Assembly: GCA_030530685.1 (NCBI GenBank)
Contig: JAUMUM010000001.1
Span: forward strand, 124,001-188,000
Direction: 5' to 3'
DNA from: Actinomycetaceae bacterium
GTDB taxonomy: Bacteria; Actinomycetota; Actinomycetes; Actinomycetales; Actinomycetaceae
Length of the DNA: 64,000 bases
Part shown: positions 2,953-46,728 of the stretch, one piece after another
Layout: the number at the start of each line of letters is the position of its first letter
How positions within the stretch are numbered: position 1 is the stretch's first letter
The notes under the pieces: model-generated
What the model saw: only the letters and a program-made list of their open reading frames with translations
Told to the model about the DNA's origin: nothing
The model's database searches: none
Program-made: the position numbers and the translations under genes

Positions 2953-4029
2953 CTACACCTTCATTTTTTCGGCTTCCAGCGTGGGCTGTCCCCCGGGTGT
3001 TTCGTTTTCATTGGCCGCGTCGCCGCTTTTGATCTTTTTGCCGTTGCCTCTAGTCGAGAGGTAGACCTGAGAGACGCCTCCACCGATAATGAGGAGGCCA
3101 CCGAACATCTGCAGGAGCGTCAGGCTTTCCGAGAAGAGGAAGAAGCCGAGCAGCGAGGCCATGATGGTCTCCTGGTAGGAAATGGTCGCCAGTTCGCCAG
3201 CCAGGAGGATGCGGGCAGCGACCGTCAGGAAGTAGAAGGCGCCGAAGCCCGTGATGAGCGCCGCGATGACGAGCACGGTCCATGACTGCCCGTCCATGCT
3301 GGTAATGCTCCAAGCGTGGGTGACCTGCTGACCGTCGGCGTCCCTGACTGCTTCGGGAACCCCGTTGGCGTTCCTTTCGCGCAGCGGGTAGGTCAGGCCC
3401 GACCAGCGGAAGAGCAGCATGATCGCGATGGTTCCGGCAGCGAACATGAAGTTAAACCAGGAGCGGACGTTCGAGTCGAAGTCCGTGCGGTAGCGCGACA
3501 CGAACAGGTACAGGCCGTAGGCAACGCCAGAAAGCAGTGCAATGAGGTTTCCGGTCATGTACTGCGGATCCAGGTCGAGGCCGATGCCGTTTTCCGAAAT
3601 GACCTGAACGATGAGCAGAGTTCCGACGAGAACCGCCGCGAGGGAGCCGAGCATTGAGAGCTTGAACGGCTCCTTGAGGAATATCGTTGCGAGAATCGTC
3701 GAGTACACCGGCCCCGTGTAAATGAGGAACGAGGCATTGGCCAGCGTCGTGTACTGGGTCGAAATGACGTAGAGCGACGAAAGCAACCCTAGGAAGATAC
3801 CCGAGAACAGGATCGCGGGAGAGAACCTCTGCGCCCTAACCTTCTTGAAGCCGCCAATGAATACAAAGATGACGGTCATTCCGATGAAGCCGGTGAAACT
3901 ACGGCAGAAGGCGATGAAATCGCCCGGTGCATTGATGTAGCGCGCGAAAGCCCCAATGCCACCCATGAGGGATGACGATAGGAACATGAAGCCAAAGCCC
4001 TTGAGCTTTTGCACTGACTCGGAATTCAC
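2953..4029 (-). CDS. EamA/DMT-superfamily transporter (first paralogue)
   Basis: A 358-residue polytopic membrane protein with about ten transmembrane helices in two EamA repeats; FLIYTGPVYSTILA and a C-terminal LLIIGGG stretch are typical. The start is taken as GTG 4029, with AAGGA 8 bases upstream; the open frame extends to 4176, but the extension is polar and lacks a ribosome site. It is a clear paralogue of the protein at 4265-5329 (both share a NA-FLIYTGP segment and similar length). The cytoplasmic tail is polar. The substrate cannot be read from sequence. Its place among creatinine and arginine genes suggests movement of a pathway intermediate or end product such as sarcosine. Confidence 0.85.
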   Translation of the reverse strand: MNSESVQKLKGFGFMFLSSSLMGGIGAFARYINAPGDFIAFCRSFTGFIGMTVIFVFIGGFKKVRAQRFSPAILFSGIFLGLLSSLYVISTQYTTLANASFLIYTGPVYSTILATIFLKEPFKLSMLGSLAAVLVGTLLIVQVISENGIGLDLDPQYMTGNLIALLSGVAYGLYLFVSRYRTDFDSNVRSWFNFMFAAGTIAIMLLFRWSGLTYPLRERNANGVPEAVRDADGQQVTHAWSITSMDGQSWTVLVIAALITGFGAFYFLTVAARILLAGELATISYQETIMASLLGFFLFSESLTLLQMFGGLLIIGGGVSQVYLSTRGNGKKIKSGDAANENETPGGQPTLEAEKMKV

Positions 4030-4156
4030 TTGAATATTCCTTTCCACGACGGCACCAACGATGCTGGCTGCCGCAACCCGGCCCACCTTCCACGAAATCC
4101 GGTGTCCTGCCGGCAACGTGCTTCGGGCGCTGTGGTCGTTGTTTGTGTTATTCGCC

Positions 4157-4215
4157 GTGCGTTCAAGAGAACGCACCGGCTCGGCCGTCGGCAGTTACCA
4201 CTGACGGCCGAGCCG
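4157..4215 (-). other. Two tandem intercistronic hairpins
   Basis: Two abutting perfect inverted repeats lie between the transporter genes: 4157-4163 with 4170-4176 (7 base pairs, 6-base loop) and 4177-4189 with 4203-4215 (13 base pairs, 13-base loop). Neither is followed by a T-run on the minus strand, so they look more like processing or stability elements, or an attenuator, than a simple terminator. Confidence 0.55.
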
Positions 4216-4264
4216 TCTTCCCCGGCCTCGATCGAAGATCCAGGTCAGAGAAAGCTTGTATGCG

Positions 4265-32827: not shown

Positions 32828-35800
32828 CTAGTTGCTCTCCTCTTTCGCGATCAATCCATGGAAGCGATCAAAGAAGACGAGAAGCCTCTGGATCACCCGC
32901 CGTTTCTTCTCACTGCGATTGCCTTCCGATGTAAAGCGAGAGACGGGCGGCAGCACACCGGTGATATCCATGCCGACGGTACGAAGATGGCCGTCGCGGA
33001 AAGCGATCTCAATGAAGGCGCGAGTCTCCTCGGGGCGGAGCCGTTCTTCCGCGATGATTGCTTCGAGTTCGGCATTGCACCTGGCCGCGACGAAGTCACG
33101 CCACTCGACATCGATCTCCCCGTCCATGGAAACCGACTCAACGAAGTCTTCGACAAGGTCCTTCTTGTTACGCAACGTCGGACTGGCGAGAACGGCGCGA
33201 CTGATCTCTTCGCGGATTTCTTTGTCGTCGCCGTCACCGTGCTGCTCACGATACTTCTCAACGAGCATGAGAATGTAGGCGACATTGATGTCCACCTGTT
33301 TGATCAACTCGATTTCGAAGACCACATCGTCGTTGATGACCTCTTTGTCCGTCTCCCTTTCCTGTCGAAATTCTGCGTAGAGGTCTAGGTAGATGCTGCG
33401 GTAGTCCTGCTTTTGGCGTTCGGTCAGGATCTCGTCGTTCGCAAAGTCATCAAACGAGGTAAGGATGTTCTCCAACCGCAGAATCTGGCCGAAAAGCTGA
33501 ATGAATTCCCTCTGCAAGTCCTCCCCTATGATCGGTTCGTCGAGAGGGAAGGAAGAAAGTAGCTCGCTCACCTTAGCGGTGTATTCCTCAAGGTAGTCAC
33601 CGTATGGCTTAAGCATGACAACGCCGTGTGCGTCCTTGTTCCCGAACAACTCGAGCGCGGCATTCGTCTCCTCTGACAGGTCTCGGAAGGTGACGATGTT
33701 GCCGTAGGTTTTCACCCGGTTCAATATGCGGTTCGTGCGCGAGTAGGCCTGGATCAAGCCGTGTGCTCTAAGGCTCTTATCGACGAATAGGGTGTTGAGG
33801 GTGGTCGCATCGAAACCGGTAAGGAACATGTTCACCACGATGACCATATCCAGTTCGCGGTTCTTCAGACGCTGGGATAGATCCTTGTAGTAGTTCTGGA
33901 ATTTGTCGGCGCTAGTGTCGTAGCTGGTATCGAATAGATCGTTGTAGTCCTGAATCGCGTCCTCCAAGAATGCGCGTGCATCTTGAGAGAGCGCGTCGGT
34001 ATCGAAGGCCTCGTCGTCAAGTATCCCGTCGTCACTGGCGTCGTTGGCACCATATGAGTATATGAGACCAATCTTCAGTCGCTGCTCGGCAGGCACGATT
34101 TCCTGGTTTACCTGGAAGCACGTGTAGTAACGTCGCGCGGCGTCAATGGACGCGGTGGCGAAGATAGCGTTGAATCCCTTGATGCGCCTACGCTCCTGAA
34201 TGGCCTCGATTCGACTGCGACTTCGAGCGGTCTCAGTGACGTTCGCAATGACGGAGTGTTCATAGCTGGAACTGCGTTTAGTCTTCTGAGCGAAGTGCTC
34301 AAGCGTGTATTTCACGATCTTCTCGATGCGATCGGACGCGAGCAGCGCTCTTTCCGTGTCGATCGCGGAGACTTTCTTGTCGACCACCTCGCCGACTTGG
34401 ACGGTGTTGACGTAGTCGACGCGGAAAGGCAGCACGTTCTTATCGGTGATGGCGTCGACGATCGTGTACGTGTGGAGCTTATCTCCGAATGCCTGTTCCG
34501 TGGTTTTAAGCCTCGGATTTCCACCAGAACCAGCGTTTCTTGAGAATATCGGCGTTCCCGTGAACCCAAAGAGGTTGTATCGTTTGAAGGCTTTGGTAAT
34601 GGCCGTGTGCATATCGCCGAATTGCGAGCGGTGACACTCGTCGAAGACGATCACCATATGGCCGCCAAAGATCTCATGGCCCTTGTGCGCCTTGATGAAC
34701 GTGGAAAGCTTCTGAATCGTCGTAATGATGATCCGGGCTTGTGGGTCTTCCAGTTGCCGCTTGAGCACATTGGTAGAGGTGTTGGAGTTAGCGGCCCCTT
34801 TCTCAAACCGGTCATACTCTCGCATCGTTTGGTAGTCGAGGTCCTTACGGTCGACGACGAATAGCACTTTGTCCACACCTGGAAGCCTCGACGCGAGTTG
34901 AGCTGTCTTGAACGAGGTCAGGGTTTTTCCCGAACCGGTCGTGTGCCACACATATCCACCGGCTTTGATGGTGCCAAGTTGCTTGTAGTTCGTGGAAGTG
35001 TTGATCTTCTGTAGGATTCGCTCGGTAGCGACGATTTGGTAGGGCCGCATGACCAGCAGCATCCGATCGGTCGTGAGAACGCAGTACTTCGTGAGGATGT
35101 TCAGCAGCGAGTGTTTTGCGAAGAACGTCTTGGTGAAGGCTGGCAGGTCACGGATCGGCCTATTCTCCGCATCTGCCCACCATGACGTGAACTCGAAGCT
35201 GTGCGATGTTTTGCGAGTTCTGTTGGCCTTGCGAGTGCCTTCGGTTTCTTTGAGATGCTGGCTGCGGGTGGTGTTCGAGTAGTACTTCGTCAACGTCCCG
35301 TTCGATATGACGAATAGCTGAACGTATTCGAACAGACCGGTGCCGGACCAGAAGCTGTCCCTCTGGTAGCGGTTGATCTGGTTGAACGCCTCGCGAATAT
35401 CGACACCTCGCCGCTTGAGTTCAACATGGACCATAGGCAGTCCATTGACCAGGATTGTCACGTCATAGCGATTGGCGTACTTCGCGCCTCCTTGGCCCTG
35501 TGCAACCTCGTACTGGTTGATGACTTGAAGACGATTGTTGTGAACGTTCTGCTTGTCCAAAAGCGCGATATTCTTGGTGGATCCGTCATCACGCCTGAGA
35601 AGCTGAACATGGTCTTCTTGAATGCGTTCCGTTTTCTTGACGATGCCGTCCTTCTTCCCGGCTATGCTGCTTTCAAAGAAGCGTTTCCATTCGGCATCCG
35701 AGAACGTAATGCGGTTCAAGGCTTCGAGTTGCTTGCGGAGATTGGCAGTCAGTTCGTTTTCTGACGTGATGGGTAGGTATTCATAGGCCTGGGACTGAAG

Positions 35801-35944
35801 CAACCGGATGAACTCGCGCTCAAGTTCAGCTTCCGATTGGTATGAGGTCGCCGCTTGCTCTTCCGGGATGTACTTGGCGACAACGGTGCTCTCTCCGCTC
35901 ATCGCCACAACATCGTATTTGACTGCTTCTCCATGCTCACTCAT
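32828..35944 (-). CDS. hsdR: Type I restriction endonuclease, R subunit
   Basis: 1038 residues. The N-terminal nuclease is PD-(D/E)XK, NRYDVTILVNGLPMVHVELK (about 158-177). The translocase has Walker A WHTTGSGKTL, the DECH box (FDECHRSQFGD), GFTGTPIF, and motif VI AYSRTNRILN. It cuts DNA lacking HsdM/HsdS methylation after ATP-driven translocation. GGAGGGG precedes ATG 35944, and the gene overlaps the GIY-YIG gene by 8 bases, so it is the last gene of the operon. Confidence 0.95.
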   Translation of the reverse strand: MSEHGEAVKYDVVAMSGESTVVAKYIPEEQAATSYQSEAELEREFIRLLQSQAYEYLPITSENELTANLRKQLEALNRITFSDAEWKRFFESSIAGKKDGIVKKTERIQEDHVQLLRRDDGSTKNIALLDKQNVHNNRLQVINQYEVAQGQGGAKYANRYDVTILVNGLPMVHVELKRRGVDIREAFNQINRYQRDSFWSGTGLFEYVQLFVISNGTLTKYYSNTTRSQHLKETEGTRKANRTRKTSHSFEFTSWWADAENRPIRDLPAFTKTFFAKHSLLNILTKYCVLTTDRMLLVMRPYQIVATERILQKINTSTNYKQLGTIKAGGYVWHTTGSGKTLTSFKTAQLASRLPGVDKVLFVVDRKDLDYQTMREYDRFEKGAANSNTSTNVLKRQLEDPQARIIITTIQKLSTFIKAHKGHEIFGGHMVIVFDECHRSQFGDMHTAITKAFKRYNLFGFTGTPIFSRNAGSGGNPRLKTTEQAFGDKLHTYTIVDAITDKNVLPFRVDYVNTVQVGEVVDKKVSAIDTERALLASDRIEKIVKYTLEHFAQKTKRSSSYEHSVIANVTETARSRSRIEAIQERRRIKGFNAIFATASIDAARRYYTCFQVNQEIVPAEQRLKIGLIYSYGANDASDDGILDDEAFDTDALSQDARAFLEDAIQDYNDLFDTSYDTSADKFQNYYKDLSQRLKNRELDMVIVVNMFLTGFDATTLNTLFVDKSLRAHGLIQAYSRTNRILNRVKTYGNIVTFRDLSEETNAALELFGNKDAHGVVMLKPYGDYLEEYTAKVSELLSSFPLDEPIIGEDLQREFIQLFGQILRLENILTSFDDFANDEILTERQKQDYRSIYLDLYAEFRQERETDKEVINDDVVFEIELIKQVDINVAYILMLVEKYREQHGDGDDKEIREEISRAVLASPTLRNKKDLVEDFVESVSMDGEIDVEWRDFVAARCNAELEAIIAEERLRPEETRAFIEIAFRDGHLRTVGMDITGVLPPVSRFTSEGNRSEKKRRVIQRLLVFFDRFHGLIAKEESN

Positions 35945-36944
35945 TGCCGCGCCCCTCCGCTTCGGCGCTCATTGAAGATTCGTCGCTACTCCCGTTCTCG
36001 ACAAGGCCATCCTGTTCGGCACCAGCCCAGTCGGCGTCAATATCGTCGATGCCCCTATTCTCCCAGTCGGCGTAGGTCCCACCTTCCCAGGTCCAACTTG
36101 TTCGGCCGTTGCAGCTGCGCCCACAGGCAATCGCACCCGCGGTGGAGGGAGATGAGAAAGGAATGTCGCGGGCAACGATTCCGGTCTTCCCATCAACGAC
36201 TATGGAGCCGTCCGCAACGAGTTTGTCATGCTGCGCCTTATACGAGGCATAGGAACGGCGTGTCTGTTCGCTGCCACCAGGACGAGTCCATGAACCGACC
36301 ACATGGGAGTCTTTAAGCATGACGAACTCGTCACCGACAACACGGGCACGAGCGTCGACCCCATTCCGCCGATTCACAAGCGTGAAAATGGGAGACTCAC
36401 GCGGAGCAGTTGGCGTGAAGACCTCACCACTTGTATCGGTGGTCCGCAGAACGTTAACGCCTAGTACCGGCAGAACGCCGCGCACCTGGTCAAGGAAGGT
36501 TTCCGCGTCGGATTCCTGCGCTTCGGAAAGTTTGCGTGGCTGTGGGCTTTGCTTGTTGTCACAGAGTGTGCATCGCTCTGCTTTTGTCGCAATTTCAAGA
36601 AGGCGAGCCTCGAGATAACCCCAGTGCCCTTCATTGAAAGAGTCCTCGCGGGATGAAATGAGGACTGCCCTATTCCACCAGTCTTTTTTACGTTGGTGGT
36701 CGGAGAACCTATGGGAGAAGTCCTCTGTACGACCTATGTAGCAGAGCGTGCTCTTGATCGCATCTGGGTCGTCACCGAGTAGGAAATAGACGCCGTTAGT
36801 CTGGGCGTCGGGGCGCGAGAGCAACCGTTGCAAGTCCTTTCGCGGCCCAACGAGGACATGACCGGTCCAGCCAGACACGTTGGCAGTAGTAATCCCGCCA
36901 GGTTCGCCGTCGACGAGGAAGAGCTCGATATGTTTACCCCTCAT
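35937..36944 (-). CDS. GIY-YIG nuclease with DUF4357-like domain
   Basis: 335 residues. The N-terminal half is a GIY-YIG nuclease: GVYFLLG (GVY for GIY), CYIGRTEDFSHRF (YIG and the Arg helix) and a downstream Glu (YLEARLLE). The C-terminal half resembles DUF4357 (FTLVNRRNGVDARARVVGDEFVML, ending GRTSWTWEGG). The gene is packed between hsdS and hsdR (4-base gap and 8-base overlap). Such proteins recur in type I systems, where their job is unclear; restriction of modified DNA is possible. Confidence 0.85.
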   Translation of the reverse strand: MRGKHIELFLVDGEPGGITTANVSGWTGHVLVGPRKDLQRLLSRPDAQTNGVYFLLGDDPDAIKSTLCYIGRTEDFSHRFSDHQRKKDWWNRAVLISSREDSFNEGHWGYLEARLLEIATKAERCTLCDNKQSPQPRKLSEAQESDAETFLDQVRGVLPVLGVNVLRTTDTSGEVFTPTAPRESPIFTLVNRRNGVDARARVVGDEFVMLKDSHVVGSWTRPGGSEQTRRSYASYKAQHDKLVADGSIVVDGKTGIVARDIPFSSPSTAGAIACGRSCNGRTSWTWEGGTYADWENRGIDDIDADWAGAEQDGLVENGSSDESSMSAEAEGRGNE

Positions 36945-36948
36945 GTGC

Positions 36949-38169
36949 TTACTTCCTTTCGGGGAATGTCAAAAGTCGGTCACGGTAGTACTCGTATTGC
37001 TTACGTCGCGCGGCGATCTCGGCCGGCAAGCCGGAGGTGAGGTCATTGACGAGAGCGTCGAATTTGTCTAGGACTTCAGCTATACGGCGTTGTTCAGACA
37101 AAGAAGGAAGGGGAATCGGGAACCTTCTAATCAATCTTGCATTGAGGTCTAAGCGCGCTCCACGACCAAGCGCCTTGAGTTGCCGATATCTATGACTCAC
37201 CCAATGGAAAACGTAACGATAATCGGCCTGCATATGATTAATCTCTATATTGCAGCAATGCTGGTTGGTCGTCAAAGGAACCTTATTGATGGCGCAACGC
37301 CCTGCAGTTGCGCCTGAAATTGCCACGATCACGCAATTTGCTGGAATCCAGGAAACTCCGGTTTCCCGCAGAGCCCTGTCAGTTATGAAAACTTTGGTCT
37401 TCCATATGTCGTGGAACTGGATTTCATTCGTTCGGAGCCAGGGAATAGTACCTTCGTTGTAATACTCCGGGGCACCAGCCTTTGGGGTAGCACCAGAGGA
37501 TACTCGTGTCGAGATAGCCTCCAAAGTTGTCCACTCCGCTTCTTGCACACGGTCGTCCTCAAATATCCTCGCGCGGTAATAGTCGTATTGCTTGCGACGA
37601 GCCTCCAGCTCGGCCTCCAGCTCGGCCTCCAGCTCAGTGAACTGATCCAGTATTCTCACGATCTCATGTTGCACCTCAAGCGGCGGCACCGGAACACGGA
37701 TCTTTGCAAGATTCTTGGCAGAAAGCTCAATAACCTTGGTCCCAAAGGCATACTTCCTCTTTTCTATCGCGAACTCTGCTGAGCGAAAATAGTAGGAAAG
37801 AAACTTGGTATCCTGCGCTGAGTGTAAAACAGTCGCATGTCCGCCAGTTACGACCTCGGTCTTGCCACACCAAGCGACGGCTTTACCCACGTCTTCCATA
37901 TTCTCACTAGTGTTCGCCACAACGAGGGCACCCGGAGGAACGATGGTCAGTTTCGCAGCGTAGTCGGGTTCAACGTACGCGCACGTTCTTGAGGTATGAA
38001 TTCCGTAACGTGTGTAAATGTGCCCGTAATGGATGGCGCCAACACCATGCTCTCGAAATGTTGATTTTGGCATACCACTTCCTCGCACGAGTTTGGCGAT
38101 ATCTCCAATTGCCCGGTACTCCACCCCGTCCGGACACAGATCACGGAGCATGTCTTCTATCCGGCTCAC
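36949..38169 (-). CDS. hsdS: Type I specificity subunit
   Basis: 406 residues. Two target recognition domains (about 15-165 and 215-370) are each followed by a conserved helix of the form RRKQYDYYRARIF and RRKQYEYYRDRLL. The DNA target cannot be read. The first conserved helix contains three 4-residue repeats (ELEA), comparable to the TAEL repeats of the EcoR124 family. The gene overlaps hsdM by 4 bases. Confidence 0.93.
   Translation of the reverse strand: MSRIEDMLRDLCPDGVEYRAIGDIAKLVRGSGMPKSTFREHGVGAIHYGHIYTRYGIHTSRTCAYVEPDYAAKLTIVPPGALVVANTSENMEDVGKAVAWCGKTEVVTGGHATVLHSAQDTKFLSYYFRSAEFAIEKRKYAFGTKVIELSAKNLAKIRVPVPPLEVQHEIVRILDQFTELEAELEAELEARRKQYDYYRARIFEDDRVQEAEWTTLEAISTRVSSGATPKAGAPEYYNEGTIPWLRTNEIQFHDIWKTKVFITDRALRETGVSWIPANCVIVAISGATAGRCAINKVPLTTNQHCCNIEINHMQADYRYVFHWVSHRYRQLKALGRGARLDLNARLIRRFPIPLPSLSEQRRIAEVLDKFDALVNDLTSGLPAEIAARRKQYEYYRDRLLTFPERK
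37600..37635 (-). repeat. Three 12-base tandem repeats in the hsdS spacer
   Basis: Three units (37600-37611, 37612-37623, 37624-37635) encode ELEA three times; two are identical and one differs by one base. In EcoR124-type HsdS a gain or loss of one 12-base unit changes the spacing of the bipartite target. Confidence 0.85.
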
Positions 38170-39734
38170 TTTGTGCCCTCCAGCTCTGCGACGATCTCGT
38201 CAATCGACGAGCGAAGCTCAACTTGGCGCGCAACGATCCTTTGGATCTCTGCATTGAGCTCCGATATATCCACCACTTCTTGCGTGTTCTCTTGCTCCAC
38301 GAAGCTCGACACCGAGAGCGTGTAGCCGTCCTCGGCAATCGACTCATTGTCAACCAACGCAGCAACGTGATCCACGCTGACACGGGCCTCCAACACATCG
38401 AGAATCCTCTGTTGATGTTTCGGCAGAAGCTTGTTCTTATTCCCCTCGCGACTGAACTGGTCCGAAGCATCCACGAACAGCACAGCACTGTCAGCCTTCG
38501 ATTTCTTGAGCACGATAATGCAGGTCGCGATAGTCGTGCCAAAGAACATGTCCGGTGGAAGCTGAATGACCGCGTCGACATAGTTATTGTCGACAAGGTA
38601 CTTGCGGATCTTCTGCTCGGCACCACTGCGGTAGAGCACGCCGGGAAACTCGACAATAGCGGCAGTGCCATCGACAGCGAGACTCGAAAGAATGTGCATG
38701 GTGAACGCCAAGTCCGCTTTCGACTTGGGCGCGAGCACTCCCGCAGGAGCAAAACGTTCATCGTTGATGAGCAGCGGGTTTGCGTTACCCTCCCACTTAA
38801 TCGAATAGGGAGGATTGGAGACGATCGCTTCGAACGGTTCTTCGTGTCGGTGCTGCGGGTCCGTGAGGGTGTCCCCGTGGGCGATGTCAAACTTCTCGTA
38901 GTTCACGTCGTGCAGGAACATGTTGATGCGAGCCAGGTTGTAGGTGGTCAGGTTAATTTCCTGACCGAAAAAGCCTTGGAGCACGTTCTCTTTGCCGAGC
39001 ACTTTGGCAAACTTCAGCAGCAGCGAACCCGATCCAGCCGCAGGATCGTACACTTTGTTCACTCGGTTCTTTCCTATCACCGTAATGCGCGCGAGCAATT
39101 CGGAGACCTCCTGGGGCGTGTAGTACTCACCTCCAGACTTACCGGCACTTGAGGCGTACATCTGCATGAGGTACTCATACGCGTCGCCAAACAAGTCGAT
39201 CGAGTTATCCTCGAAGCTTCCAAGCGGGAGGTCACCCACCGCGTTAAGAATCTTGACGAGCTTCTCGTTACGTTTGGCAACGCTCGATCCGAGTCTGGAA
39301 CTATTGGGGTCAAGATCGTCGAATAGTCCCTTGAGATCACCTTCTGCCGCGGTGCCTACAGCCGAACCCTCAATGTTCTTGAAGACGCGGGCAAGAGTCT
39401 CATTGAGGTTGACGTCCTGGGCCGCCTTGGCCCGGACATTGCAAAAGAGTTCGGACGGGAGGATGTAAAAGCCCTTCTCTTCAACCGTCTGCTCGCGTCC
39501 ATACTCTGCGACCGAATCGTCCAGTTGCGCGTAGTCGAAATCGAGAGCGCCGGCCTCGCGCTCGCCCCTGTTGACGTATGCGGTGAGATTCTCGGATATG
39601 AAGCGATAGAACAGCGTTCCAAGCACGTATGCCTTGAAGTCCCAACCATCAACGGCGCCTCGTAGGTCGTTGGCAATGCGCCAGATCGTACTGTGCAGCT
39701 CCTCGCGCTGTCTTTCCTTTGAGGTCGGTGTCAT
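38166..39734 (-). CDS. hsdM: Type I N6-adenine methyltransferase
   Basis: 522 residues from ATG 39734 (AGGA upstream); the frame extends to 39872, but the family starts with MTPTSKERQREELH as here. The SAM motif is YDPAAGSGSLL and the catalytic motif SNPPYS. The N-terminal helical domain is of the EcoR124 (type IC) kind. First gene of the hsdMS-GIY-hsdR operon. Confidence 0.95.
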   Translation of the reverse strand: MTPTSKERQREELHSTIWRIANDLRGAVDGWDFKAYVLGTLFYRFISENLTAYVNRGEREAGALDFDYAQLDDSVAEYGREQTVEEKGFYILPSELFCNVRAKAAQDVNLNETLARVFKNIEGSAVGTAAEGDLKGLFDDLDPNSSRLGSSVAKRNEKLVKILNAVGDLPLGSFEDNSIDLFGDAYEYLMQMYASSAGKSGGEYYTPQEVSELLARITVIGKNRVNKVYDPAAGSGSLLLKFAKVLGKENVLQGFFGQEINLTTYNLARINMFLHDVNYEKFDIAHGDTLTDPQHRHEEPFEAIVSNPPYSIKWEGNANPLLINDERFAPAGVLAPKSKADLAFTMHILSSLAVDGTAAIVEFPGVLYRSGAEQKIRKYLVDNNYVDAVIQLPPDMFFGTTIATCIIVLKKSKADSAVLFVDASDQFSREGNKNKLLPKHQQRILDVLEARVSVDHVAALVDNESIAEDGYTLSVSSFVEQENTQEVVDISELNAEIQRIVARQVELRSSIDEIVAELEGTK

Positions 39735-40060
39735 GTCGCTCTTTTCCTGTGCCTGAGGCGCATTCTTCACTTGTTCGAGAAGGTCGGTCCTAGCGTACAA
39801 CCAGCCGCCGACACTTTTCGCGGTTGCGTTCTTTAGGCAGGGTCGCACGATGGCTGCGTTCCGGTTGTACATGTGAGCAAGTAAGTCTCTCGCAGGTCAC
39901 CAGTGACTGACGATGGGCTATCTCATAGATCGCGTAGTTCTCAAGTCGTTCGGGAAAACACACCGACTCGACCCATACGCGGTCACATCGACCATCACGT
40001 ACCCCAATTCAGGTCGGTCAACAGCACAGGTAGATTCGCGAGCTGATGCCGCGCTTCCCT
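39735..40060. other. 326-base gap between hsdM and the helicase gene
   Basis: No gene is evident. The in-frame extension of hsdM (to 39872) contains no ribosome site or known fold. The hsd promoter must lie here, as both flanking genes are on the minus strand. Confidence 0.4.
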
Positions 40061-41230
40061 TTACATCCCTACTTTCAAGAGATGCTCGTTGCCGTCAAAA
40101 AGTGATGGGCAATAGTGGGCCGACCACACTTCCACGTTAGTAATCGCAGGTGCCAGACAGTTACTTCGCACGGCTTTGACAACGACAGCCACGGAATACT
40201 TAGCACGCGTAACTGCTACATAAAAGGCGCAGGCAGCCTTGCCTTTGAGAGGCCGACCCTTGCAGATAAAGTCACGTATTGGCTCTGTAGCCAATACGGC
40301 CACACGTTCGTAGGTACGGCCTTTTGAAACACCAAAGTTGATTGGATCGAAAGAGTCACATTCCTTCCACGAGTCTTTGGAACGGCGGAGCACGATTGGT
40401 TTGAACTCCTTGTAATAGGCATCAAGGTCATCCTCTGAGATGAGGAACACTCCATCATGGCCAGTGCGTTCATTCATCCGCGAAGTAGTTCGCGTAAACC
40501 CATATTCATCAGGAAAGATGGAATCAGAAAAGTCGGCTATTGTCTGATTGAACCTGTACGTTTCCGCCTTTTCGCAGATGTCGAGCACGCTCAAGTCTAG
40601 CTGCCGATACCAATCCAGGAGGTTCAGCCGATCAGCCTTCTTGTTCTTCGGGGACTTCAGACTGCTGTCTAAGAGGGATTGTCGGCTGTCGCCAACGAGC
40701 AAGCATGGCACGTGGCCTTGTTGCAAGAGCTTCTTTATGACCTCCAAACCATAGCGGCTGATGTCTTGAGCCTCGTCAACGACGATCTCATCGTAGATCC
40801 TCTGGAGCCGGTACTCGACACGCCCTTCGGCCTTGACTAAGACCTGGTAAGCAAGCTCTTCTATGTTGTCTCTGTAGACCAATCCGGTATCTGTGAAGTA
40901 TCGCCTTGGATCTTGCTGCTTCTTGTAGAGAAGATCTTCTTTCTCCTCACCGGCTTCGAACAAAAAGCCTGTGATCGTCACATCCGGGAACAACAGCGGG
41001 AGGTAGGGGCGTATGACGTGGTTAAGAAGGAAGGCATACCATCCCATTACTTCAGGAATCCCAGATGCTGAGTGGACAGAATTCGCAAGTCTCCCCTCTA
41101 GCTCGTCTTGCCCAGACTGGGTCAGCGTTATAACAAGTCTACGTTTATCCGATGACGCACTTGCACAATACGCAACGATGTGTTCAGTCTTTCCGGAACC
41201 TGCGCAAGCATGGATGAACCTATGTTTCAC
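40061..41230 (-). CDS. gajB: UvrD-like helicase, GajB-like
   Basis: 389 residues of superfamily 1. Walker A ACAGSGKTE (9-17), motif II VDEAQDIS, motif III LLVGDSRQSLLD, and motif VI VAVTRAKYSVAVVV are all intact. It is shorter than known GajB proteins (about 490 residues). The gene overlaps the OLD-family nuclease gene by 4 bases, a Gabija arrangement. In Gabija, GajB senses DNA ends and activates GajA. Here the helicase may have a reduced accessory domain. Confidence 0.85.
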   Translation of the reverse strand: MKHRFIHACAGSGKTEHIVAYCASASSDKRRLVITLTQSGQDELEGRLANSVHSASGIPEVMGWYAFLLNHVIRPYLPLLFPDVTITGFLFEAGEEKEDLLYKKQQDPRRYFTDTGLVYRDNIEELAYQVLVKAEGRVEYRLQRIYDEIVVDEAQDISRYGLEVIKKLLQQGHVPCLLVGDSRQSLLDSSLKSPKNKKADRLNLLDWYRQLDLSVLDICEKAETYRFNQTIADFSDSIFPDEYGFTRTTSRMNERTGHDGVFLISEDDLDAYYKEFKPIVLRRSKDSWKECDSFDPINFGVSKGRTYERVAVLATEPIRDFICKGRPLKGKAACAFYVAVTRAKYSVAVVVKAVRSNCLAPAITNVEVWSAHYCPSLFDGNEHLLKVGM

Positions 41231-42846
41231 GACTCCGCCTTTATGAAGGGCTCCAACGCAGAAAATGCACGCCTAAAGTAGTCAGGAGGTGTCAGACTTT
41301 TGGAGGATTCTGCTATGGTCAATGCAGTTCCGGTCTTGTCCTTCATCATCCAATCTTGAATGGGACAAGTAGCTTTTGGAAACACCTGACGCAGTTGCTG
41401 TTCATCATTGAAATAGCGGATCTGCGACTCCAACGTGTTGCCCTGCTCTTCCTTCCCGACATACATGTCGCGGACACCGTCCTTCCGGTAACGTTTCACT
41501 CTGTCCACCCAGTGGTTCACCGACTTGCCATCATTGTCTCGTAAGGCAAATAGCTGTCTGTCAAGCATGTTTGCCAACTCGAAGCACCTCTCGAAAGAGA
41601 CACCGTTGATCGCCATCACGTCTATCCCATAATCCATGGGCTCACATCCATAGCGATCCTTGAAGAAACGATTGAATACGATCTCGTCAGAAGGACCTTC
41701 AACGACAACGATTTTGTCTGCCAGAATCAGGCGCATCGTGTCAAATCCGGATAGGCGTTTGAAGTAGTTGATCGTATTCGGCTCCAGTCCACCAAACCTC
41801 GAAGACTGTCCATTGCTCAAAAAAGTGACTTGGTTCAGTCCAAGTCTATTGAGAACGTAGGAGCTATGGGTCGTGATATAGATTTGCCGTCCTTTAGCTG
41901 CGTCTTGAATGTATGAGATGAGCTCACGGAGACGAGTATGGCTGAGGTGGTTCTCTGGTTCCTCAATAAAGATCAGGTTGCTCGTGTCCTGACTTCGACT
42001 CAACGCGAGGCTAGTCTTGGCTCTGGCTTGGTTCCCTTGGCCCGACATTGACAGTGGTATTGCGTTGATATCAGGGATGAGCGTGTTTTCCCATGATGCG
42101 GATCTGGACTGATCAACCTGAAGTCCGACTACGACTCCAGGCATTCCGCCTCTTTCGCCCTGCAACTCCTTGTTAAGGGCACTAAGGACATCTTGGCCAA
42201 GGGTTCCTCGAAGCTTGCGGTGTTTAACGGAGACAAGGCTTCGGTCTTTTGGGTCAAGACGTGATTCCAGGAGCTGCCGAGTGTAGTAGTCGACACCTCG
42301 TTCGGAGCGGATGGTGCGACTATCGATGAGTGATATGCCAAGCTCTTTCGGTCGTTTAAGAACGGGGTCCCCTGCGAAGTTCCGCCATTCGAAAGCATAG
42401 TACTCCACCGGTAGAACACGTGGACAGTCCTCCTGCGCAAAGTACTGTTCAAGCTCTTCCACGAAATCAGGGTCGGGATGAGCCCATACTGATAATCCAG
42501 CAGAGTCTTCCTTAGCTAAGTTGTGGATACCCCTGAGCTTTTCAAGTTCTCCTCGTTCTACGTCAAGATGTACATCAATCTGGAACTCTGGTGGAGAGCA
42601 TGCTTTGTTCCCAGACTCACGCTGGTCGAAGAAATGGTCGATGTCGTCTTTGTTAAACCAGTAAGGATTGAGGTATTCCGCGGCGCGCACGCCACCGACT
42701 CGGCCGGTGAGAGCTAGAGTTATGGCTTCGAGCAGAGTCGACTTCCCAGCCTCGTTGCCTCCGACAATGATGTTCATCCTGGGCTCCGGTTCGAAGACGA
42801 AGTCACGGAACTTGCGGTAACCGCGGATTTGGACCTTTGTGATCAT
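41227..42846 (-). CDS. gajA: OLD-family ATPase/Toprim nuclease, GajA-like
   Basis: 539 residues from ATG 42846 (GTG just upstream is possible). Walker A GGNEAGKST (29-37), an ABC-like signature LSMSGQGNQ (265-273), and Walker B LIFIEEPENHLS (291-302) form the ATPase. The Toprim nuclease has VVVEGPSDE with Glu383 and LRDNDGK with Asp437 and Asp439. With the helicase it forms a class 2 OLD (Gabija-like) system that would nick phage DNA when nucleotides are depleted. Confidence 0.87.
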   Translation of the reverse strand: MITKVQIRGYRKFRDFVFEPEPRMNIIVGGNEAGKSTLLEAITLALTGRVGGVRAAEYLNPYWFNKDDIDHFFDQRESGNKACSPPEFQIDVHLDVERGELEKLRGIHNLAKEDSAGLSVWAHPDPDFVEELEQYFAQEDCPRVLPVEYYAFEWRNFAGDPVLKRPKELGISLIDSRTIRSERGVDYYTRQLLESRLDPKDRSLVSVKHRKLRGTLGQDVLSALNKELQGERGGMPGVVVGLQVDQSRSASWENTLIPDINAIPLSMSGQGNQARAKTSLALSRSQDTSNLIFIEEPENHLSHTRLRELISYIQDAAKGRQIYITTHSSYVLNRLGLNQVTFLSNGQSSRFGGLEPNTINYFKRLSGFDTMRLILADKIVVVEGPSDEIVFNRFFKDRYGCEPMDYGIDVMAINGVSFERCFELANMLDRQLFALRDNDGKSVNHWVDRVKRYRKDGVRDMYVGKEEQGNTLESQIRYFNDEQQLRQVFPKATCPIQDWMMKDKTGTALTIAESSKSLTPPDYFRRAFSALEPFIKAES

Positions 42847-43063
42847 CACGCCACCAACCTGCCTAATCGTCGTGACAACATCGTATCGTTTAGGCTGTGG
42901 AACGAACTGAGTAGTGATGCCTTCGTCACTTATGGACTCGAGGAGTGTTGGATGCGGAACCGTTCGATCTCGCGTAGATCTGTCTCAATGTTGATGTTAA
43001 TGGCTTCGATGAGGAAGGTTAGCAGACGTTCGCACATACGAACCCTCAGCCGTCGACTTGGTG

Positions 43064-43231
43064 ATGACCGTTCAGGACAGTATCGCCATCGACTGGGATC
43101 GGAAAGAGAGCGTGCGCGCCGAGATTCGCTCGCGGGTCCGGCGTCAGCTCGCGCGCCATGGTTATCCGGTTGAGGCGGAAGGCAAGGCCATTGAGCTAGT
43201 CCTAGAACAGGCAAGGGTACTGGCGTGGTAG
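43064..43231 (+). pseudogene. Relic of the C-terminus of another HsdR
   Basis: Reading from about 43061 to TAG at 43229-43231 gives SIAIDWDRKESVRAEIRSRV, then RRQLARHGYP and LVLEQARVL. This is the usual end of type I restriction R subunits (DW-RESVRA-LR..., KYGYP, VLEQAE). Nothing HsdR-like precedes it. GC is about 65% (39 of 60), unlike the genes on both sides. It is on the opposite strand from the present hsdR, which has a different end. I take it as a leftover of a lost system; a 55-residue protein could still be made. Confidence 0.65.
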
Positions 43232-43354: not shown

Positions 43355-44062
43355 GTGAATACAGACGTCAACATCTATTGTGATGAGAGCACACACCTCC
43401 CCAATGACGGGCACCCCTTCATGGTGCTTGGTGCCATCGTCTGTCCTGTGGACAGAGCAAAGAAGGCAAATGATAGGTTGACTGAACTGCGTCACAAGTA
43501 CGATTTGCCCAAGTCCTTTGAGATCAAATGGACAAAAGTGTCTCCCGCAAAATACTCTTTCTATCTTGATGTTCTTGACTACTTCTTCGACAACGACGCT
43601 CTTGAGTTTCGTTCCGTCGTTGCGTCAAAGAAAAACTTGAATCACGCAGCTTACGGACAGACACATGATGACTGGTACTACAAGATGATGTTCTACCTGA
43701 TCCGAAATGTCCTCCCTTCTGGCCAAAAGTCATACATTTATCTTGATAAGAAAGACACCAGAGGAAGTATTAAAGTAAGAAAGCTCCACGAGGTAATCTC
43801 AACGGCTGCCTATGACTTTAGACGCGATAATATTCGCAGAGTTCAAGTCGTCGAATCCCACCATGTAGGACTGATGCAGCTCGCTGATCTGCTTATTGGC
43901 GCAGTCAACTATGCCAACCGCAACCTCAACACCAGTAGCGCCAAAGACATGCTGGTGGAACGGATTCGCAAACGGGCAGGCGTTACTCTCACTCGAACAA
44001 CTCTGCTGAAAGAGACTAAGTTCAACGTATTTCATTGGACCCCAAGGGAGCGTCCATCGTGA
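43355..44062 (+). CDS. DUF3800 protein
   Basis: 235 residues from GTG 43355 (GGAGGG upstream). The DUF3800 hallmark is near the N-terminus, YCDEST (Asp10-Glu11), and a later conserved LMQLADLLIGAVN. This family is thought to have an RNase H-like fold and is common in defence and mobile DNA. It ends in a GTGA overlap with the next gene, so the two form an operon. GC is about 42%, well under the genome. Function unknown. Confidence 0.82.
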   Translation: MNTDVNIYCDESTHLPNDGHPFMVLGAIVCPVDRAKKANDRLTELRHKYDLPKSFEIKWTKVSPAKYSFYLDVLDYFFDNDALEFRSVVASKKNLNHAAYGQTHDDWYYKMMFYLIRNVLPSGQKSYIYLDKKDTRGSIKVRKLHEVISTAAYDFRRDNIRRVQVVESHHVGLMQLADLLIGAVNYANRNLNTSSAKDMLVERIRKRAGVTLTRTTLLKETKFNVFHWTPRERPS

Positions 44063-44583
44063 ACTCTCTCGATCCAGATCCAAAGTTTGATCCCGCATCA
44101 ATGTCGGAGGATGCTTACCTGGAAAGACTGTACTCCAAGTTTCGTCAAGACTTAATTGAGCGAAGCATACGGTGGAAGCGCAACAATGCGTATGTACGCC
44201 TCCGCCGAGAGCCGGAGATCAAGGGCCGACACGCGATCTTTTGGCACATTGTTAGCGGCGGAAGCAACAACGAACCTGACCGCACTCTAGATCCCGAGCG
44301 GTGCAGGCGCATTCACTGGATACGCCTACTAGTTGAACAGTTCAATATTGACCATCCACAGAAATCTACGGAACTCCACTGGTGGATCAGCGATGATCCA
44401 AGATGGCAGAAAGAGCCACGTTATGTTCTCGCAACCCTCGACTACGACTATGTAGTCATTATTCAAGAAAAGAGAACATATGCTCTTCTAGTTACAGCCT
44501 ATTATGTTGAGACCCCTCGCAGGAGGGCGAAGTTTCGTGAGCAGCATGACCGATACTGGCAAAAGCAAGAGCCGCTCGCTTAG
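44059..44583 (+). CDS. Possible PBECR-type nuclease, partner of DUF3800 protein
   Basis: 174 residues from GTG 44059 (AAGGGAG 8 bases before). The core pattern HAIFWHIVSGG (58-68), RCRRIHWIR (81-89) and a C-terminal beta unit DYDYVVIIQEKRTYALLVTA resemble the PBECR (phage-Barnase-EndoU-ColicinE5/RelE-like) RNase proteins, which often end with a YxLxTAYYV-like strand. That assignment rests on motif memory only. Together with DUF3800 it may be a toxin-antitoxin or abortive unit. Confidence 0.6.
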   Translation: MNSLDPDPKFDPASMSEDAYLERLYSKFRQDLIERSIRWKRNNAYVRLRREPEIKGRHAIFWHIVSGGSNNEPDRTLDPERCRRIHWIRLLVEQFNIDHPQKSTELHWWISDDPRWQKEPRYVLATLDYDYVVIIQEKRTYALLVTAYYVETPRRRAKFREQHDRYWQKQEPLA

Positions 44584-44759
44584 CGAACGGCTCCAGATAC
44601 TCCTTCAACTCATGGTTGATGAGCTATTTCAATGCTAGCATCATCTGGGCGCTGATGGAACAGCTTGGATTTCAAAGCGCCAACGCTCGACATGGCCGCC
44701 CTCAACATCCCGCTTAAGCCTCGGAGCCTCAGATGCCACATCACGCCTTTATGCCACCA

Positions 44760-45206
44760 TCACCGCTGACTGAATCGGATGACCAGGAGCTCGTCCTCCT
44801 CCAGACCACGCAGCAACTTCTCGTCCGCCTCGTGCAGCGGAACGCTCGTCACCATCTGCGGCTCGACCCTTTTCCCCGGAGTCCACGTTCGAATCAGGCC
44901 GATCCTCGACTTCCGGCCGAGGCATCCCAGCAGATAGTCGAGCCAGGCCTTGATCTGAGCAGGCTCTCCCCTGCCCCAATTCGCGGTCCCCGCTTCCCCT
45001 CGCCATTGCTCGGGGTTGCCGATGAAACTCCCGCAGTCGCACATGCCCCGCGTGATCGAATAGGCCAAAGGCATCCACTGCGCCCTGGTCGAGTCGACCC
45101 TGACCTTCTCAGCAAACGGCTCAATCCCGAGGATCTCCTTGGACTCGCGCAAAAACTGCTCCCCCTTACACGAGTCGGGAAGCAACCAGATGTTCATAAA
45201 GCACAT
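44760..45206 (-). CDS. Unrecognised 148-residue protein
   Basis: The ATG at 45206 has GGAGG 6 bases upstream, and the frame reads as a soluble protein (MCFMNIWLLPDSCKG, then QWMPLAYSITRGMCDCG and IGLIRTWTPGKR, acidic end). I know no family. It lies in the island between the DUF3800 operon and AbiF but on the other strand. Its GC is higher than that of the neighbours, so it may be a separate arrival. Confidence 0.6.
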   Translation of the reverse strand: MCFMNIWLLPDSCKGEQFLRESKEILGIEPFAEKVRVDSTRAQWMPLAYSITRGMCDCGSFIGNPEQWRGEAGTANWGRGEPAQIKAWLDYLLGCLGRKSRIGLIRTWTPGKRVEPQMVTSVPLHEADEKLLRGLEEDELLVIRFSQR

Positions 45207-45559: not shown

Positions 45560-45780
45560 CAGCCCGCTTCGGCTTTCAGCCGAGAGTGGGCTGGATCTCT
45601 TTGGAGGCAGGAGCAAAGAGTGACGAGGACACTCAAAAACGCCACCCTATTTGGGTACCTGAGTTTTCACGACTACCTAAATTGATCTTCGTTGGTTCTT
45701 GTCTCAAAGAAACTGACACTGTAGACTACAGTCAACATGACCGGTTCCGCTACCCGCTTCGGTGGGAGTCCAGGGCCGGT
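45560..45780 (+). ncRNA. Structured leader of AbiF, possible abiF-type RNA
   Basis: Three hairpins are visible: 45560-45593 (CAGCCC with GGGCTG around TCGGCT-TTC-AGCCGA); 45718-45732 (ACTGTAG and CTACAGT); and about 45738-45781 (GACCGG with CCGGTC around ACCCGCTTCGGT). CCCGCTTCGG occurs in the first and the third. The reading frame upstream of AbiF is open but has no protein features. A conserved RNA upstream of abiF genes is known; I cannot confirm a match. Confidence 0.45.
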
Positions 45781-45810
45781 CCTCACTTTTCTAGAAAGAA
45801 AGCCACGTAC

Positions 45811-46728
45811 ATGACTCATGCGAAGCAGTTCAAGACCTACACAGAGCAGGTCGACCTTCTTCGCACGCGTGGGATGCACATTGATGACCAAGATCGAGCT
45901 GAACGCTTGCTCGCGCGCCTAAACTACTACCGACTCTCTGGCTATTGGTACCCGATGCGGCTTCCCACCCCGGGAGTCAGAGTGCGCCGAGACGAGTTCA
46001 TAGACGGTGCATCATTTGACGTAGTTGTTGCCCTCTACGAGTTTGATGAGCGACTACGGCACGCTGTGTTCATCGAGTTGGACCGCATCGAAATGGCGGT
46101 TCGTGCCATGCTCGGCTACGAACTTGGCCGTATCGACCCGCTAGCCTACCTGGACGCAAAGCACTTAGGCGCTCGTGCCCATCATCCACACAAATCTGGT
46201 CGCAGCATGCACGATATGTGGCTGAGCAAATACGAAGCTGCCTTGAAGTTATCCAAGGAGGATTTCGTCACCCACCACAAAACGAACTACGGTGGCGCTA
46301 TACCTATCTGGGCTGCAGTCGAAATCATGGACTGGGGAATGCTGTCTTACTTGTACGGCATGTCTTCAGATATCGTTCGTAACAGCATCGCGTGTCAGTG
46401 CAAACTCAGCGCCCCGCAACTAGAATCGTGGCTAAAATCCCTGAATATTGTTCGCAACTATGCTGCGCATCATGCCCGATTGTTCAACCGCGTTTACACT
46501 ATCAAACCCAAGCTGAATGACGATAAACGACTGGTGTCAGTAAAGGAAAGAACGAACCGAACTTTCGGTCAACTCACACTGATCCAGTACTTGCATCGCC
46601 AGCTCGACCTGTCTCCAGCAGATCGCCTGCCGGAGCTTATGGACACGTATCCGCACAATCCGTTCGTCCCTCTGGAGCGAACGGGAGCGCCCGACAACTG
46701 GCATGACCTTTCCCTCTGGGCGCGTTAG
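45811..46728 (+). CDS. AbiF/AbiD-family abortive infection protein (HEPN)
   Basis: 305 residues from ATG 45811. Abi_2 family signature: QVDLLRTRGM, RLLARLNYYRLSGYWYPMR (33-50), FDERLRHAVFIELDRIEMAVR (78-98). The HEPN motif R-N-x3-H is at 215-220 (RNYAAHHAR), predicting a metal-independent RNase. Members stop phage growth by cutting host or phage RNA and are often held in check by an RNA next to the gene. The ribosome site is weak (AAAG-rich), so translation may depend on the leader. Confidence 0.88.
   Translation: MTHAKQFKTYTEQVDLLRTRGMHIDDQDRAERLLARLNYYRLSGYWYPMRLPTPGVRVRRDEFIDGASFDVVVALYEFDERLRHAVFIELDRIEMAVRAMLGYELGRIDPLAYLDAKHLGARAHHPHKSGRSMHDMWLSKYEAALKLSKEDFVTHHKTNYGGAIPIWAAVEIMDWGMLSYLYGMSSDIVRNSIACQCKLSAPQLESWLKSLNIVRNYAAHHARLFNRVYTIKPKLNDDKRLVSVKERTNRTFGQLTLIQYLHRQLDLSPADRLPELMDTYPHNPFVPLERTGAPDNWHDLSLWAR

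Follow-up and report, generated by a model that had tools for sequence, protein, structure and literature searches.

A DUF3800 gene pair in an Actinomycetaceae defence island belongs to the phage P1 RlfAB/PDC-M04 family and is a candidate two-gene nuclease module

Phage P1 carries an adjacent gene pair with a 1-base overlap, rlfA-rlfB, directly after repL/oriL, and the P1 record annotates the two products as "possibly associated with lytic replication"; their counterparts in phage P7 are named RapA and RapB. A C1-repressor operator (Orlf) precedes rlfA in the same record, so the P1 copy is expected to be silent in the lysogen and switched on in lytic growth. Both genes were scored as nonessential in a genome-wide CRISPRi study (PMC10695390) and some P1-like plasmids have lost them or carry other genes in their place (PMC6906374). 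A survey of 5426 complete E. coli genomes found P1-type rlfAB in 121 of them, at 127 places of which 123 were on plasmids. The second described relative is PDC-M04, a computational phage defence candidate listed in PADLOC-DB 2.0.0 (2023) with the two subunits PDC-M04A and PDC-M04B. In the literature searched, neither an experimental report on PDC-M04 nor a paper joining P1 rlfAB with PDC-M04 or giving the function of the pair was found.

More distant likenesses are offered by accessory systems that accompany type I R-M genes or CRISPR effectors. The prrC gene occupies the slot between hsdS and hsdR. PrrC is an RNase effector whose gene accompanies a type I R-M system; the type Ic R-M enzyme to which it is genetically linked keeps it silent, and T4 Stp releases it (PMC2610378). 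The two-gene module DarTG2 lies between hsdS and hsdR in a type I R-M island of EPEC, where it is active (PMC12255303). DUF3800 proteins have been described as RNase H-fold nucleases with rearranged catalysis (PMC10910872, PMC12669027), and accessory nucleases of this kind are associated with Cas12a2/type VI-F and V-A2 loci.

The window pair and its described relatives

In the window (the whole 64,000-nt stretch of Actinomycetaceae DNA that was analysed), two overlapping genes, hereafter A and B (Table 1), correspond to both described pairs. Gene A matches PDC-M04A (model PDLC04353; E 4.7e-89, positions 1-230 of 232) and gene B matches PDC-M04B (model PDLC04367; E 4.6e-69, positions 1-170 of 173). 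Both subunits match over their full length with no difference detected, and the locus, an A homologue with an adjoining and overlapping B homologue, is thereby a member of PDC-M04. Comparison with phage records by tblastn gave 46% identity over 96% between A and P1 RlfA (E 1e-58) and 33% identity over 83% between B and P1 RlfB (E 5e-10), and B additionally matched phrog_16230 (E 6e-16). The window pair thus resembles P1 RlfAB in the nearly full-length homology of both proteins, in the gene order and in the overlap of the genes, whereas the settings differ: the P1 copy lies in a lytic replication region under C1 control, and the window copy belongs to a chromosomal defence island in which phage replication genes are absent, its neighbours being gajAB, the relic of an hsdR gene and a gene of the Abi_2 family instead of a repL/oriL lytic replicon.

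An earlier sequence-only reading of this DNA had proposed the pair as a new unit and knew of no description of it. The claim of novelty has to be withdrawn, as the pair is already known twice over, as PDC-M04 in a database of 2023 and as P1 rlfA-rlfB, annotated as an adjacent pair for years. P1 rlfAB, the DUF3800 pair of R-M operons and PDC-M04 are one family. The pair is widespread across bacterial phyla and present in a standard laboratory phage, and recognition of the family makes E. coli available at once as a test system for a large class of DUF3800 nucleases that await characterisation. In Bifidobacterium phage Bbif-1 (GQ141189, L009), an unannotated rlfB homologue was observed at 3699-4217 on the plus strand, directly after the 'RlfA phagic protein'.

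Layout of the locus

The overlap of the two genes, their low GC content and their position between Gabija-like genes and an AbiF-like gene, all noted earlier from the letters alone, were confirmed. The junction is a GTGA motif, and the GC content is 0.47 for A and 0.50 for B against 0.63 for the 64,000-nt window taken as reference; GajAB is encoded upstream and an Abi_2/AbiD-type protein downstream. Both genes are enclosed in a low-GC stretch of about 33-47 kb that also contains the type I R-M operon, gajA-gajB and the Abi_2 gene.

Table 1. Features of the window around genes A and B
Feature	Position	Strand	Description and basis
Type I R-M operon hsdM-hsdS-(GIY-YIG/DUF4357, PDC-S14)-hsdR	32828..39872	-	Pfam and PADLOC profile matches
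GajB (Gabija)	40061..41230	-	PADLOC GajB, E 4e-90
GajA (Gabija)	41227..42849	-	PADLOC GajA, E 4e-159
hsdR C-terminal relic (type I)	43058..43231	+	PF11867 T1RH-like_C, E 1.7e-16, profile 273-327/329
Gene A	43355..44062	+	DUF3800 protein, RlfA / PDC-M04A homologue; GTG start, 235 aa; predicted RNase HII-fold nuclease
GTGA overlap, 4 bases	44059..44062	+	B start within A stop; from the sequence
Gene B	44059..44583	+	RlfB / PDC-M04B homologue; GTG start, 174 aa; predicted RNA-binding or RNase partner
GC-rich hairpin, 12 pairs	44568..44594	.	Spans B stop; possible transcription-unit end
Abi_2 family (AbiD/AbiF-type) gene	45586..46728	+	PF07751, E 1e-49; PADLOC AbiD, E 1e-66

The hairpin at the end of B has a T-tail for the minus strand only, and GC-rich hairpin sites numbered 2 against 1.5 expected, which is near chance. 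Upstream of A, no Rfam family, including the DUF3800-linked RNA motifs, was matched in the window and 16 loci, no conserved regulatory element was seen among relatives, and the RNA fold was no better than that of shuffled sequences.

Between gajA and A, about 120 bp upstream of A and on the same strand, a 57-codon ORF was recognised as a relic of hsdR. Its domain, PF11867, marks an R-M family other than that of the intact HsdR (32828-35944), which carries EcoR124_C. Because this relic adjoins A, the window pair is likely to have been part or a neighbour of a type I R-M operon in the past. The arrangement is much like that of rloC, which lies beside an hsdR relic in the paper on PrrC and RloC (PMC2610378). 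In the intact R-M operon of the window, a gene for a GIY-YIG-like/DUF4357 protein (35937-36944, minus strand; PADLOC PDC-S14, E 4e-107) is embedded between hsdS and hsdR, the slot used by the A-B pair elsewhere.

Recurrence and genomic context of the pair

The sample, obtained with a profile built from six A proteins, comprised 69 viral contigs and 80 GTDB loci spread over many phyla; B was sought in it with an HMM grown from six seeds. B was located directly downstream of A on the same strand in all 80 GTDB loci, which had been fetched by A alone; scanning the GTDB contigs for B by itself at the protein level gave no match, and the A alignment was used instead. Where viral contigs lacked B after A, the A gene belonged to a distant DUF3800 subfamily, or an insertion or the end of the contig intervened, and the distant group without B (27% identity, Mannheimia-phage-like, L147-L162) was excluded as another subfamily. 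In nearly all of 134 homologous pairs the A-B junction was overlapping or near-touching, with an exact mode that is approximate owing to a start picker biased towards -4. The pairwise distances of A and B in 83 loci were strongly correlated (Mantel r 0.81; maximum 0.28 in 1000 shuffles), and no A-B gene fusions were found. A-B is a genuine two-gene unit that is widely conserved and recurrent across phyla, and the anticipated recurrence in other genomes is thereby established. That two unrelated genes overlap here by chance is refuted by the pairing in 80 of 80 loci together with the strong co-divergence; no observation in its favour was found, and it merits virtually no credence.

With respect to genomic context, hsd-like genes lay within 6 kb of the pair in 42 of 80 GTDB loci, mostly adjacent and on the same strand, as counted with Hsd-subunit HMMs that are broad and also pick up related helicases and methylases; a stricter phmmer count gave 28 of 80. 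HsdS was encoded immediately upstream of A in 17 of 78 loci and HsdR immediately downstream of B in 12 of 71, the commonest arrangement being hsdS-A-B-hsdR, with hsdM-hsdS-A-B-hsdR as the recurring order, and on a Phyllobacterium plasmid the order was hsdM-GIY-YIG-hsdS-A-B-hsdR. No recognised R-M gene was present within 6 kb in roughly half of the 80 loci, where many contigs were short. The tight operon position between hsdS and hsdR would suit an accessory modulator that tunes the type I R-M complex without acting on the phage itself; however, many copies have no nearby R-M gene and the phage-borne copies travel without R-M genes, and such a role is regarded as very improbable.

In the window's own family, Actinomycetaceae, the A subfamily is patchy, with strong matches in 7 of 151 genomes and in neither of the two congeners listed. 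Three of these copies are in prophage-like regions, near antirepressor or integrase genes; of the others, one is beside a tRNA gene, one is decayed in an island and one is a fragment. Across the loci sampled, the pair shows a preference for type I R-M operons or defence islands, and for prophages.

In one relative (G428; L179, 6984-8396) the pair is alone beside a tRNA gene among apparent housekeeping genes, which suggests insertion at a tRNA. In another (G442; L183, 7673-8620, minus strand) an HTH-like tail stands in place of the whole of B and the final third of A; this decayed copy lies next to hsdRMS and gajAB, as the scar of a deletion in a comparable island.

Predicted folds and possible functions

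Gene A matches DUF3800 (PF12686) with 59 bits against a cut-off of 21. The AlphaFold model of A (pLDDT 95.1, pTM 0.92) had RNase HII as its best PDB match (E 4.8e-6, probability 1.00, TM about 0.5) and retrieved 20 RNase H2/H3 chains at E <= 0.001. A PDB sequence search with the A and B profiles returned nothing usable. The acidic pattern sought in such a nuclease, D-E on the first strand, D on a core strand and D on a helix, is conserved: E56, K58, D131, K133 and D178 are invariant (83 of 83), and D10 and E11 are present in 82 of 83. The model and this conservation predict that A is a metal-dependent nuclease of RNase HII fold whose putative acidic active site is intact. The DUF3800 acidic motif reported earlier in one of the genes is therefore real, whereas the accompanying remark on the lack of a settled function for DUF3800 is out of date in part, as the domain has been described as an RNase H-fold nuclease and the A model agrees. 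The accessory nucleases of the Cas12a2/type VI-F and V-A2 loci share with A a DUF3800 RNase H fold near a defence effector, but belong to TPR-DUF3800 or other DUF3800 branches for which no B partner is described.

The model of B was likewise confident (pLDDT 93.6, pTM 0.89), and RelE/HigB/Cami1-type chains recurred among its PDB matches, none of them at E <= 0.001 (TM 0.16-0.47). Among 110 homologues, H63 and R81 are invariant, R84 and W87 are nearly invariant, and position 146 is T or S in all 110, with T146 near-invariant; the conserved His, Arg and Thr/Ser are candidate catalytic residues of the kind expected for a BECR/PBECR RNase. B is predicted to be most like a BECR/RelE-type RNA-binding or RNA-cleaving subunit. 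Membership of a PBECR family was explored separately: window B had no Pfam PBECR match, PBECR2 (PF18810) was matched marginally by 2 of 110 B homologues (best E 8e-4), and hhalign detected no profile-profile similarity between B and PBECR2, the latter represented in this comparison by only 3 sequences. On these three counts PBECR2 membership is unsupported. Given the weak RelE/HigB resemblance and the negative PBECR2 comparison, B can reasonably be taken for an RNase partner, but its place in the PBECR family is not established; of the earlier characterisation, the RNase-like motifs keep a plausible meaning and the PBECR-like label is unproven.

The small size and overlap of the two genes, the His/Arg/Thr conservation of B with its weak RelE/HigB fold resemblance, and the presence of TA systems such as DarTG2 in the same hsdS-hsdR slot would all fit a toxin-antitoxin system, in which B would be a toxic BECR-type RNase and A, translated first, would neutralise it. 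However, A keeps an invariant acidic putative active site, which is unusual for an antitoxin, and the nonessentiality of P1 rlfA and rlfB (PMC10695390) also speaks against this reading. A full-length rlfB at 99-100% identity accompanies a frameshifted rlfA in phage vB_EcoM-813R1 (L185) and in two plasmids of E. coli (L186, L008), although a sequencing error or an unexpressed B is possible there. The converse also occurs: A is kept where B is truncated, in L187, or interrupted by an insertion, in L180. Because P1-like elements carry a frameshifted A with an intact B, the view of B as a simple toxin and A as its antitoxin is disfavoured and is taken as unlikely.

Another proposal starts from the phage copies: the pair might help temperate phages in lytic replication or host takeover by processing RNA or R-loops, and would be a passenger in defence islands. 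The location of P1 rlfAB after repL/oriL under the C1 operator and the own-family copies beside antirepressor or integrase genes are in line with this role, and an RNase HII fold suits RNA-DNA hybrids. Yet the P1 genes are nonessential (PMC10695390) and lost or replaced in some P1-like plasmids (PMC6906374), and the repeated placement between hsdS and hsdR is left unexplained, so that this proposal too is held to be rather unlikely.

The explanation towards which the analysis leans, with slightly more confidence than doubt, is that RlfAB = PDC-M04 is a mobile two-gene nuclease module that functions as a single unit to counter phages or rival mobile elements. The PDC-M04A/B matches, the pairing in all GTDB loci, the co-divergence, the hsdS/hsdR adjacency, the hsdR relic of the window, the RNase HII fold and invariant acidic residues of A, and the confident B model with its weak RelE/HigB/Cami1 matches argue for this explanation. 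Further support comes from the activity of other type I R-M-linked accessory systems (DarTG2, PrrC) and from the DUF3800 nucleases that accompany CRISPR effectors. Conversely, the C1-controlled P1 copy misfits a classic prophage-expressed exclusion system, and the loci without a nearby R-M gene, about half of the total, together with the lack of a PDB match for B at E 0.001, count against this explanation. The literature searched contained no demonstration of activity, toxicity or protection by the pair. The two-gene defence unit of the sequence-only reading thus survives as a genuine, recurrent unit with defence-associated context and conserved acidic residues, and loses its novelty.

As a defence module, A and B would act together on RNA or RNA-DNA hybrids once infection is sensed, and this action would shut down phage or host expression; the pair may serve as a second line behind the restriction system, as PrrC or DarTG2 do inside type I R-M loci. 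We infer complex formation by A and B, RNA as the target, the trigger and the defence outcome. The parts would be unlike those of either known system: PrrC is a single ABC-ATPase anticodon nuclease, whereas neither A nor B has an ATPase domain or is related to it in sequence, and DarTG is an ADP-ribosylating TA system with folds unrelated to A-B. A more specific and doubtful version is that A-B is a latent two-component RNase silenced by the type I R-M complex in whose operon it lies and freed when phage anti-restriction proteins disable that complex. It would then be a PrrC-like guard assembled from unrelated parts, an RNase HII-fold protein and a RelE-like partner. Temperate phages, P1 among them, would have taken this guard over and would switch it on in lytic growth.

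Several minor observations were made in the source genome. Two further DUF3800 genes are present on other contigs (C6:23344-23991 and C26:84980-85579), and the B profile matched nothing in the genome other than the window copy. A high-GC ORF of 148 aa (44760-45206, minus strand) lies between B and the Abi_2 gene, and a SAM riboswitch (RF00162; 12405-12490, plus strand) was matched elsewhere in the window with 46 bits, barely over the gathering score.
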